From positions 1-64,000 of the forward strand of contig NZ_PKIZ01000013.1 in assembly GCF_002847825.1 (NCBI RefSeq): a stretch of DNA of 64,000 nt. The letters run 5' to 3'. Shown piece by piece: positions 2,018-49,023 of this stretch (position 1 is its first letter; each line of letters opens with the position of its first letter). The DNA comes from Kytococcus schroeteri. GTDB lineage: Bacteria > Actinomycetota > Actinomycetes > Actinomycetales > Dermatophilaceae. The position numbers and the translations under genes are program-made. Below the pieces are notes generated by a model. The model worked only from the letters and a program-made list of their open reading frames with translations, did no database searches and was not told where the DNA came from.

Positions 2018-6304
<4,287 letters not shown>

Positions 6305-6320
6305 GGGCCCGCGGAATCGA

Positions 6321-6351
6321 TTGGCACACCAGCCGGCCCGACTGGCAGAAT
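6321..6351 (+). promoter_or_regulatory. Candidate aspS promoter
   Basis: TTGGCA (6321-6326) and CAGAAT (6346-6351) are separated by 19 bp. A start site 7 nt after the -10 falls at about 6358, exactly one base before the first paired base of the T-box Stem I. Spacing is longer than ideal and the -10 departs from TANNNT at its first base, so the position relative to the RNA fold is the best support. Confidence 0.4.
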
Positions 6352-6357
6352 CCGCCG

Positions 6358-6565
6358 CATCGGCGAGGGCGGAGTGACGACCCGCGGGATCCTGCCGGTC
6401 GCGCGTCCGGCGGACCGACGAGAGGCCGGGCGTCCTGCCCGGCGAAGGTGTGGTGGCACCGCGACCTGGCCCCCGCCCACACCTCCCGGGCTGCCGTTCC
6501 CCCTCACGGACGGCACCCCTCGGGGCGGCGTCCGTGACGGGAGACCCGACCCGAAAGGACGACCC
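6358..6565 (+). promoter_or_regulatory. T-box riboswitch, tRNA-Asp responsive, in the aspS leader
   Basis: The leader folds like a short-Stem-I T-box. Stem I: 6359-6364 pairs with 6394-6399, AGG 6366-6368 with CCU 6391-6393, GCGG 6369-6372 with CCGC 6382-6385, and the 9-nt loop AGUGACGAC holds the Asp codon GAC (6376-6378, or 6379-6381). Stem III: 6425-6431 with 6437-6443. The T-box domain pairs 6446-6453 with 6477-6484 and GCG 6461-6463 with CGC 6474-6476, leaving the canonical 7-nt bulge UGGCACC (6454-6460). UGGC complements GCCA, the 3' end of a G73 tRNA such as tRNA-Asp. The competing fold pairs CUCCCG 6483-6488 with CGGGAG 6538-6543 around a hairpin 6505-6512/6529-6536. No U-tract follows and the AAAGGA ribosome-binding site is close, so translational control is inferred. 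Confidence 0.8.
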
Positions 6566-8395
6566 ATGCTCCGCACCCACCAGGTCGGCACGCTCCGCGC
6601 CGAGCACGCCGGCCAGACCGTCACCCTCACCGGCTGGGTGGCCCGCCGCCGCGACCACGGCGGCGTGGCCTTCCTCGACCTGCGCGACGCCTCCGGCGTG
6701 GCCCAGGTGGTGGCCCGCGACGAGGTCCTCGAGTCCGGTGGCGCCCACGACCTGCGCAACGAGTACGTCGTGCGCATCACCGGCGACGTGCGCGTGCGCC
6801 CCGACGGCAACGTGAACCCCGACCTGCCCACCGGCGAGGTCGAGGTCGTGGCCGGCGAGCTCGAGGTGCTCAACCCCGCCGCGCCCTTGCCGTTCCAGAT
6901 CGACGAGCGCGTCGAGGTGGGCGAGGAGGCCCGCCTGAAGCACCGCTACCTGGACCTGCGCCGCCCGGGCGCCCGCTCCGCCGGTGCCGCCCTGCGCCTG
7001 CGCAGCAAGGCCAACGCCGCCGCCCGCCGCGTGCTGGAGGGCCACGACTTCGTGGAGGTCGAGACGCCCACCCTGACGCGCTCCACCCCCGAGGGCGCCC
7101 GCGACTTCCTCGTGCCGGCCCGCCTGGCCCCCGGCAGCTGGTACGCCCTGCCGCAGAGCCCGCAGCTGTTCAAGCAGCTGCTCATGGTCGGCGGCATGGA
7201 GCGCTACTACCAGATCGCCCGCTGCTATCGCGACGAGGACTTCCGCGCCGACCGCCAGCCGGAGTTCACCCAGCTCGACATCGAGATGTCCTTCGTCACC
7301 CAGGACGACGTCATGGCCCTCGGCGAGGAGATCGCCCAGGAGGTCTGGGCCCTCATCGGAGTGGACGTGCCCACCCCGATGCCGCGCATGACCTACCGCG
7401 AGGCGATGGAGAAGTACGGCTCGGACAAGCCCGACCTGCGCTTCGACCTCACCCTCACCGACTGCACCGAGTTCTTCGCCGACACGCCCTTCCGCGTGTT
7501 CCAGGCGCCGTACGTGGGCTCGGTCGTCATGCCCGGTGGTGCGAGCCAGCCGCGCAAGCAGCTCGACGCCTGGCAGGAGTGGGCCAAGCAGCGCGGCGCC
7601 AAGGGTCTGGCCTACGTGCTCGTCGGCGAGGACGGCGAGCTGTCCGGCCCGGTGAGCAAGAACATCTCCGAGGAGGAGAAGGCCGGCATTGCCGCCCACG
7701 TGGGCGCCAACCCCGGCGACTGCATCTTCTTCGCCGCCGGCCCGGCCAAGGAGGCCCGCGCCCTGCTGGGTGCGGCCCGCCTGGAGATCGGCCGCCGCTG
7801 CGGCCTCATCGACGAGGACGCCTGGTCGTTCCTGTGGGTGGTGGACGCACCACTGTTCGAGCCGGCCGCCGACGCCGTGGCCTCTGGTGACGTCGCCGTG
7901 GGCGAGGGCGCCTGGACCGCCGTGCACCACGCCTTCACCTCCCCGAAGCCCGAGTGCATGGACACCTTCGACACCGACCCGGGCGAGGCCCTGTCCTACG
8001 CCTACGACATGGTCTGCAACGGCAACGAGATCGGCGGTGGCTCCATCCGTGTGCACCGCCGCGACGTGCAGGAGCGCATCTTCAAGGTCATGGGCCTGTC
8101 GACCGAGGAGGCGCAGGAGAAGTTCGGCTTCCTCCTGGAGGCGTTCTCCTACGGCGCCCCGCCCCACGGCGGCATTGCGTTCGGCTGGGACCGCGTGGTG
8201 GCCCTGCTCTCGGGCAGCGACTCGATCCGCAACGTCATCGCCTTCCCGAAGTCCGGTGGCGGCTACGACCCGCTGACCGACGCCCCGGCGCCCATCTCCG
8301 CGCAGCAGCGCGAGGAGGCCGGCGTGGACTTCGAGCCCGAGGAGGACGAGGACGCCGCGCAGGACACCTCGGAGGTGGCCCCGGCTACGAGCTGA
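6566..8395 (+). CDS. aspS: Aspartyl-tRNA synthetase
   Basis: Class IIb synthetase that charges tRNA-Asp. The 609 residues match the bacterial-type enzyme with an N-terminal OB-fold anticodon-binding domain ([19 protein letters not shown]), class II motif 2 ([20 protein letters not shown]), the bacterial GAD insertion domain, and motif 3 ([12 protein letters not shown]). ATG 6566 has AAAGGA 7 nt upstream and gives the usual MLRTHQVG start. The frame runs open into the leader but that region is the T-box. Whether the enzyme also charges tRNA-Asn cannot be told from sequence alone. It is followed by a convergent GNAT gene. Confidence 0.97.
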
Positions 8396-46927: not shown

Positions 46928-46935
46928 GTGGCGCC

Positions 46936-49023
46936 GTGGAGGAGGGCCTGCTCCCGGTCCCCGGCCTGGCCGTGCAGCGCACGGCCCCGCCGGGGGTGGG
47001 GGAGCTGGCCGCCTCGCACCCGGTGGCCCGGGTGCTGGTCTCCGGCGGCCTGCCGCACCTGGACCGGCCGTTCGACTACGTGGTGCCGGCCGACCTCGAC
47101 GACGACGCGGTGCCCGGCGCGCGAGTGACCGTCACCCTGGCAGGGCGGACCGAGGACGGGTGGATCACCGAGCGCCTGACCGCCAGCGACCACCCCGGCC
47201 AGCTCTCGCCGCTGCGCTCGGTGGTCTCGCCGCTGCCCGTGCTCACGCCCGCCCTGCACGCCACCTGTGCGGCCGTCGCGGCCCACTACGGCGGCACCGT
47301 GGCCGACGTGGTGCGCCTGGCCGTCCCGGCGCGCCACGCCACCGAGGAGAGGGCAGCCCTCGCCCTGGGGGAGCCGGGGCCCGTCGAGCGGCCCGTCGCC
47401 CCGACCCCGGGACCCGCGTGGACCGGCGTGCCGGCCGCCGGGGCGCTGCTGGCCCGCATCGCGGCAGGGGAGCACCCGGCCGCCGCCTGGGTGGCCACGC
47501 CCGACGGGGGCGACCCCGCGCGCCACTGGGCGCACGGGCTGCTGGACCTCGCGGTGGCCGCGGCGGCCTCCGGGCGGGGCGCGCTCCTGCTGGTGCCCGA
47601 CGACGCCGACGTGCAGACCGTGCTCGACCTCGCCGGCACCCGCTCCGAGGCCGTGCTGGGAGGGCTGGTGGGACTCACCGCCTCGCAGGGTCCGCGGGCG
47701 CGCTACGCCGCCTGGGTGCGGGTGCTGCTGGGGCACGCACGCCTGGTGGTGGGTACGCGGTCGGCGGCCTTCGCCCCGGTGGCCGACCTCGGGGTGGTGG
47801 CCTGGTGGGACGACGGCGACGGGTCCTGGTCCGAGCCGCGCACGCCCCGCCCGCACGTGCGGGAGGTGGCCGCCGCGCGCGCCCGCATCGAGGGCGCCGC
47901 GCTGGTCTCGGCCGGGCCAACGCGCACCGCCCGCGTGCAGTCCTGGGTGGAGTCCGGGCGGATGGCCGACCTCGCGCCGGCTGCGCGGGCCGCCCGGGCC
48001 GCGGCGCGGGTCCACGTGGCCGGCGAGGGGGTGGACCAGGAGCGCGACGCCGCGGCCCGGCGGGCGCGGATCCCCTCGGTGGCCTGGCAGGCCGCCCAGC
48101 GTGCCCTGCAGCACGGGCCGGTGCTCGTGCAGGTGCCACGCACCGGGTGGTCGGGGGCGGTCCGCTGCCGGGAGTGCGGCACCGCGGCCGCCTGCCACCT
48201 GTGCCCCGGGCACCTGGTGCAGCCGGGCGCGGGGCAGCCACCGCAGTGCGGCACCTGCGGCGAGGCGCCCCGTCACTGGGCCTGCACCCGGTGCGGGGGC
48301 CAGCGGTGGCGTCCTGCCGCGCCGGGCACGGAGCGCACCGCCCACGAGCTGGGCCGCGCCTTCCCCGGGGTGCGGGTGGTGACGAGCACCGCCGCCTCCC
48401 GCGTGGCCACGGTGGGGCCCGAGCCGGCGCTGGTCATCGCCACGCCGGGCGTGGAGCCCCGCCCCGAGGCCGGGTGGGCGGCGGCCCTGGTGCTGGACGG
48501 TGCGGTGACCCTGGAGCTGCCGGTGGCCGATGCCGAGGCGCAGGCCCTGCGGCGGTGGGTCTCCGGCACGGCCTCGGTGCGCCCGGACGGGCCCGGCATC
48601 GTGCTGTGCGGCGTGCCCGCCCACGCCGGCATCGACGCCGTGGAGGCCATGGTGCGGCGCGACCCGGTCTGGTACGCCCGCCGCCTGCTGGCCGAACGGA
48701 CCCAGGCGCACCTGCCGCCCGCGGTCTCGCTGGTGCACCTGGTGGGGCACCGGCAGGACGTCGAGGGGTCCCTGCAGGAGTTCACCGCCGCTCTGGACGC
48801 CGCCGAGGTGGTGGGGCCGGTGCCGGTGGGTGCCGCGGCCCTGCCCAGCCGGTGGGACGACCTCGACCCCGAGCAGGCCGCCCAGGCCTGGGTGCGCGTG
48901 CCGTGGGCGCACCACGCCGAGCTGGCCCGCACGGCCCACGACCTGCGCGCCCACCGGTCCGCGCGCCGCGCCACGGGACAGCTGGTGATGACCGTCGACC
49001 CGGAGGACTGGGTGGCTCCGTAG
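46936..49023 (+). CDS. priA: PriA-like primosomal protein lacking helicase motifs
   Basis: 695-residue actinobacterial PriA homologue. The N-terminal DNA-binding domain ([22 protein letters not shown]) is clear. Eight cysteines between C411 and about C453 ([13 protein letters not shown] and [16 protein letters not shown]) form the two zinc sites. The ATPase part lacks a GxGKT-type Walker A and a DEAH-type Walker B, so helicase activity is probably lost, as noted for other actinobacterial PriA. A structural role in replication restart is inferred. GTG 46936 is the best start. The gene sits between metK and fmt as in relatives. Confidence 0.9.

Follow-up and report, generated by a model that had tools for sequence, protein, structure and literature searches.

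A compact, conserved T-box riboswitch ahead of aspS in Kytococcus schroeteri, very probably sensing tRNA-Asp

Results

A conserved T-box riboswitch lies ahead of aspS at positions 6351-6491 of the window (the whole stretch of 64,000 nucleotides of Kytococcus schroeteri DNA that was analysed). Judged from its sequence, this leader is very probably a very compact T-box sensing uncharged tRNA-Asp, and we are confident that a T-box riboswitch of reduced design controlling aspS is the best explanation of the data. Comparison of related leaders establishes the predicted fold, codon and bulge as well as their fit to tRNA-Asp; the RNA presumably binds the tRNA, senses its charging and acts on translation. 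What is new is the reduced architecture, the fact that Rfam's model does not see these leaders, and their exclusive association with one of the two AspRS types in a family of genomes. The parts of the leader and its gene are as follows.

6321-6326, plus strand: -35-like sequence TTGGCA, found by eye, at a spacing of 19 to the -10-like box
6346-6351, plus strand: -10-like box CAGAAT
6359-6364 with 6394-6399, plus strand: P1, the outer helix closing Stem I
6369-6372 with 6382-6385, plus strand: Stem I hairpin, with loop 6373-6381 reading AGUGACGAC
6376-6378, plus strand: specifier codon GAC (Asp)
6400-6402 with 6410-6412, and 6404-6406 plus 6408-6409 with 6416-6420, plus strand: conserved candidate H-type pseudoknot
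6425-6431 with 6437-6443, plus strand: Stem III, 7 bp
6446-6453 with 6477-6484 (A1, 8 bp) and 6461-6463 with 6474-6476 (A2), plus strand: antisequestrator
6454-6460, plus strand: T-box bulge UGGCACC
6504-6512 with 6529-6537, plus strand: core of hairpin C
6482-6484 (CCU) with 6556-6558 (Shine-Dalgarno AGG), and 6487-6490 (CGGG) with 6550-6553 (CCCG), plus strand: proposed sequestrator, spanning 6482-6558
6566-8395, plus strand: aspS, starting at ATG 6566 and encoding a bacterial-type AspRS of 609 aa (NF001750 and TIGR00459 above cut-off)

The Stem I with GAC in its loop, the 7-bp Stem III and the 7-nt bulge UGGCACC that had been described in the first-pass annotation are all present in the sequence, and the reading of the leader as an Asp T-box before aspS is supported by sequence comparison. 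As in other T-boxes, Stem III precedes the antisequestrator, the A1 and A2 helices flank the 7-nt bulge, and the gene 3' of the leader fits the amino acid of the specifier. The upper part of Stem I comprises only 4 bp in the window, where 6368/6386 is a G.G.

Conservation and covariation

The leader was compared across 50 loci, consisting of the window, seven leaders found among AspRS relatives and the loci L089-L130. In 49 of them the AspRS start, extrapolated from the match, lies 94-131 nt beyond the point where the core begins; the contig of the 50th, L124, breaks off directly behind an ATG that reads like an AspRS start. The seven leaders (L010, L011, L013, L014, L015, L017 and L023) carry the core among 80 AspRS relatives kept and come from Ornithinimicrobium, Serinicoccus and a Propionibacteriaceae MAG, and the remaining 73 loci gave no leader-model match above 22.1 bits. 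Within the family of the L010 genome, the core pattern occurred in 46 of 186 genomes and the reversed pattern in none. We aligned 47 of the 50 loci: L099 and L100 were set aside as long-Stem-I aspS2 leaders, and L107 duplicates the locus L010.

Both the specifier GAC and the bulge UGGCACC were invariant in the 47 aligned leaders. The specifier stood as UGAC throughout (47/47), always followed by a purine (G in 45 leaders, A in two); hence GAC was kept upon alignment, as the first reading demanded. The compensatory changes in relatives that were called for were also found, in P1, Stem I and Stem III. In P1, all six pairs had changed on both sides, with 89.7% of alignment cells paired. In the Stem I hairpin, C-G was replaced by U-A in 6 of 47 leaders and 97.4% of cells paired, and Stem III showed compensatory changes as well (177/216, 178/196, 179/195, 180/194, 171/218). 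The antisequestrator was paired in 47/47 leaders; since A1 and A2 are almost invariant, covariation carries no information there. RNAalifold alone draws P1, Stem I, Stem III and A1, with double changes in 15 of 40 pairs, and its pairing of part of the bulge and A2 differs from our structure.

Over the 47 leaders, 94.3% of cells paired in the named structure versus 87.2% after shuffling, and cells with double changes numbered 136 versus 54 in shuffles (reached in 0 of 500), which are shuffles that ignore kinship. When partners were slid along, only 36-50% of cells paired, a comparison in which the structure has the advantage of having been drawn from the same 47 sequences. Single-leader folding was discarded as a test: its z was -1.37 and the lowest-energy fold lacked the antisequestrator, so that single-sequence energy is no test here.

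A search with covariance models, proposed together with the first reading, gave a split answer. At E up to 10, the Rfam T-box model RF00230 had no match in 6290-6600, although matching this model is a matter of library threshold and not a structural feature. The Rfam scan at gathering found no match in the window. In contrast, a leader-family model built from 41 of the 47 leaders, leaving out the window, its two closest relatives and others (six in all: the window, L097, L098, L109, L110 and L123), recovered the window with a score of 109.2 bits (E roughly 4.5e-21), with 16.8 bits as its best match outside aspS T-boxes. Likewise, Rfam at gathering had no match in 11 loci that carry Asp T-boxes of various types. 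The public T-box model thus misses such leaders. A weak partial leader-model match was seen elsewhere in the window (46932-46986, minus strand; 19.8 bits, E 0.03); as a further T-box it was rejected, being probably due to chance.

Transcript start

A pattern TANNNT was present 27-31 nt upstream of the specifier in 44 of 47 leaders, compared with a single leader of the 47 for a stretch lying 100 nt farther upstream. Its position suggests a transcription start at the 5' end of P1 or immediately beside it. The pattern was missed by the window, where CAGAAT lies at equal distance, by L098 (CAGAAT) and by L097 (TAATCT). A strict sigma-70 scan returned no promoter. The earlier claim that a predicted promoter puts the start beside Stem I is thus supported in part.

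Expression platform

We consider translational control likely. The proposal is based on the lack of a terminator, on the strand that would be common to A1 and the pairing of the Shine-Dalgarno (SD) sequence, and on the precedent of ileS T-boxes as described in the accessible part of PMC1262725. In the proposed mechanism, the transcript would start at or beside P1, the tRNA-Asp anticodon GUC would base-pair with the GAC that the loop of Stem I presents, and UGGC in the bulge with the free tRNA 3' end GCCA. Uncharged tRNA would hold the antisequestrator, keeping CCU 6482-6484 off the SD AGG, and AspRS would be made. Charged tRNA could not engage the bulge; A1 would then open, its 3' strand would pair with the SD region and translation would fall.

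Folds downstream of the T-box were computed for 46 of the 47 leaders, without L124, where the contig ends. With the A1 5' strand omitted, the SD AGG was paired in some way in 46/46 leaders, and the proposed sequestrator appeared in the lowest-energy fold of 22/46, including the window. It paired in 94.4% of cells in a set of 18 leaders picked by like length and not at random, with too little variation and no covariation. Partition functions gave an SD exposure of 0.31 in the forced ON state versus 0.25 in the OFF state, with the ON value higher in 24/46 leaders (p 0.064). An SD hairpin D that looked good by eye was rejected: the SD was paired in 80% of leaders versus 53% after shuffling, the mean z was only -0.8, and covariation in the 18 leaders did not exceed that in shuffles.

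The same T-box and tRNA might instead act on transcription, if hairpin C, alone or with the sequestrator, terminated transcription without a U-run or through Rho. Among the structures downstream of the T-box, hairpin C, located between GGGCUGCC and the SD region, has the best support, with z < -1 in 45/46 leaders (mean -2.7). In the 18 leaders of like length it covaried, with 16 double-change cells versus 7.8 in shuffles (0/500) and 7 pairs with a double change versus 4.7 (38/500). The SD switch, moreover, is energetically weak. Against termination, neither a terminator-like site nor an intrinsic terminator with a U-run was found in 6250-6600, no U-run followed hairpin C in the leaders inspected, and in aspS2 leaders, the T-box leaders of a second AspRS described below, the start codon lies 15-23 nt past the T-box match (17 loci), which leaves little room for a terminator there. 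We therefore regard transcriptional control as unlikely and translational control as the preferred mode.

Match to tRNA-Asp

The probable identity of the tRNA follows from two parts of the leader. Genes for tRNA-Asp(GUC) were found by pattern in 22 of 25 genomes, all of them genomes other than that of the window, and each of the 22 had G73; hence, the UGGC bulge fits the 3' end GCCA. The variable base of the bulge thereby matches base 73 of the tRNA indicated by the specifier (UGGC in 47/47 leaders, G73 in 22/22 tRNAs). In 4 of 8 kin genomes, RF00230 weakly detected ileS T-boxes (L081-L084; none above cut-off), which have UGGU at the bulge position and IleRS-like frames downstream (protein names assigned by eye). 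With GAC and UGGC/G73 here and UGGU in the ileS kin, codon and discriminator base agree independently, as had been claimed from the window alone.

Two other interpretations of the signal were considered, and both appear very improbable. One is that the leader RNA is bound by AspRS itself, as autoregulation through tRNA mimicry. It draws on the A2 loop, in which UGGCCCC resembles the tRNA-Asp 5' end GGCCCC. However, the same domain is found on two types of AspRS with ~30-40% identity, the other T-box parts are all present, and in two genomes (G090 and G091, with leaders L097 and L098) tRNA-Asp starts with GGCCUCG and the A2 loop is unchanged. The same two genomes led us to reject the idea that the A2 loop pairs directly with the acceptor strand of tRNA-Asp. 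The loop (A-Y-C/U-U-G/A-GCCCC; 6464-6473 in the window) is near-invariant in the 47 leaders and differs in some aspS2 leaders.

The other interpretation, no more credible, is that another tRNA is sensed, either tRNA-Thr, through ACR if the loop is read in the next frame, or tRNA-Asn. Within the invariant UGACR, ACG or ACA overlaps GAC; tRNA-Asn has G73 too, and the AspRS type of the window is often non-discriminating in bacteria without AsnRS. However, a tRNA-Asn would require AAC as specifier, the base following GAC is not fixed (G or A), and GAC fits both the gene and the bulge, with G73 of tRNA-Asp verified. tRNA-Asp hence remains the preferred ligand of the aspS leader.

Reduced architecture

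Neither a long (distal) Stem I among the 47 aligned leaders nor a Stem II hairpin with S-turn, in the consensus or in those 47 leaders, was found. In the window, the gap between P1 and Stem III amounts to ~25 nt. At the place of Stem IIA/B, the conserved stretch CGCGCGUNCGGCG-N-ACCGACG may form a compact pseudoknot. Its helix 1 was paired in 141/141 cells, with one double change (C-G to U-A, in L105) and four wobbles, and a nested hairpin fits this element almost as well. In L014, L110 and L111, an extra hairpin occurs inside the pseudoknot-like element, ahead of CGACGAGAG. Relatives, but not the window, also carry an insert that differs in length, located after Stem I and ahead of the 3' strand of P1; a hairpin in this insert shows double changes, but only 70.8% of its cells paired.

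These natural RNAs, ~130 nt in length, seem to dispense with Stem II and could be used as a minimal system.

Second AspRS and distribution

The leader model also matched leaders of a second, archaeal-type AspRS (aspS2). In 17 of 18 further loci, the match is followed by a frame related to the AspRS of the window, mostly of 427-464 aa, with ~30-36% identity to the latter in the best stretch and 36-40% in a second comparison. All three aspS2 frames tested (L162, L166 and L100) were assigned to aspartate--tRNA(Asn) ligase (NCBIfam NF003483, above cut-off). L176 (30.8 bits) was excluded from the count of Asp T-boxes, as the frame taken downstream was no AspRS.

At E up to 1e-3, 24 genomes out of 396 in an order sample and 13 out of 296 in a class sample had matches; the two samples overlap, and both were run with stricter filters, so that weak matches may have escaped. 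One match each was present in 70 genomes of the 186-genome family. NF003483 was above cut-off in 26 of these, and in all 26 the match lay 26-145 nt upstream of the profile match. The other 44 carried the Asp T-box before the housekeeping aspS, and aspS2 was found in none of them. The remaining 116 genomes had neither a T-box match nor aspS2. Hence, with kinship ignored, the T-box on the housekeeping aspS was found only where aspS2 was absent (26/26 versus 0/44). With its close tie to one AspRS type out of two, the T-box clearly exemplifies a riboswitch attached to a function rather than to a particular gene. Among 18 genomes with an aspS2 T-box that were tested, 17 also matched housekeeping AspRS strongly (a fragment in G093); in G340 the aspS2 match alone passed.

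Taken together with the reduced architecture, a tentative and rather doubtful scenario is that of a near-minimal aptamer without elbow-binding distal Stem I or Stem II S-turn, in which the invariant A2 loop and the pseudoknot-like element would add contacts to tRNA-Asp, and which would have moved between two AspRS genes in such a way that a genome using it keeps one AspRS under tRNA-Asp control.

Comparison with known T-boxes

With the actinobacterial ileS T-boxes of the translational kind, in the description given by the accessible parts of PMC1262725 and PMC10651847, the aspS leader shares the short Stem I with the specifier in its apical loop, Stem III, an antisequestrator with UGGN bulge, the lack of a U-run terminator and an aminoacyl-tRNA synthetase gene downstream. 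It differs from them in its specifier (GAC instead of AUC) and bulge (UGGC instead of UGGU), in having no detected Stem II S-turn and its own kind of pseudoknot-like element, and in the long stretch, containing hairpin C, that separates it from the SD. The available text of PMC7583486 and PMC10651847 assigns a part to the S-turn of Stem II in ileS T-boxes, and describes Stem II and IIA/B as key to holding the tRNA in this type without elbow-binding Stem I. With the T-boxes of RF00230, which are transcriptional and mostly from Firmicutes, the leader has in common a specifier followed by a purine, Stem III and UGGN between A1 and A2, but it lacks their distal Stem I and terminator, and RF00230 does not match it.

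In the accessible text of PMC1262725 (2005), ileS is the only gene for which actinobacterial T-boxes are reported. PMC2494555 (2008), in the part available, lists 32 T-boxes in 19 actinobacterial genomes and 18 in Symbiobacterium, which is placed nearer to Firmicutes. Translational T-boxes are mostly actinobacterial according to the portion seen of a review (PMC7583486), and the his operon of C. glutamicum is cited in the available text of PMC9413887. TBDB scanned Actinobacteria with a class II model (PMC7778990, accessible part), and its entries may include actinobacterial aspS leaders. An actinobacterial aspS T-box was not mentioned in the titles and abstract openings among the matches listed from open-licence literature. 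As far as the accessible literature goes, Asp is thus added to the T-box range of Actinobacteria.

The Asp T-boxes of aspS2 share the UGGC bulge and GAC in Stem I with the aspS leader, and several (e.g. L159, L161 and L163) have a 3' domain nearly letter-for-letter that of the aspS leader. In contrast to the latter, they serve the other AspRS type (NF003483), reach the start codon within 15-23 nt of the match and have a Stem I that ranges from ultrashort to long. Six leaders with a long Stem I (L099, L100, L212, L221, L227 and L228) share (G/C)AAGACA, that is, GAC followed by A, in which we read GAC as the putative specifier. These six also display AGAGA-like and GAGUA-like motifs and a UGGC bulge. 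One genome (G300) has two aspS2 copies (L171 and L177), each with an Asp T-box; the L171 frame ends after 192 aa, and one TAG falls within the match. Finally, a T-box-like leader with UGGCACC precedes a 430-aa frame at L215 whose start looks, by eye, like a seryl-tRNA synthetase, and this leader is perhaps a serS T-box in an actinobacterium.
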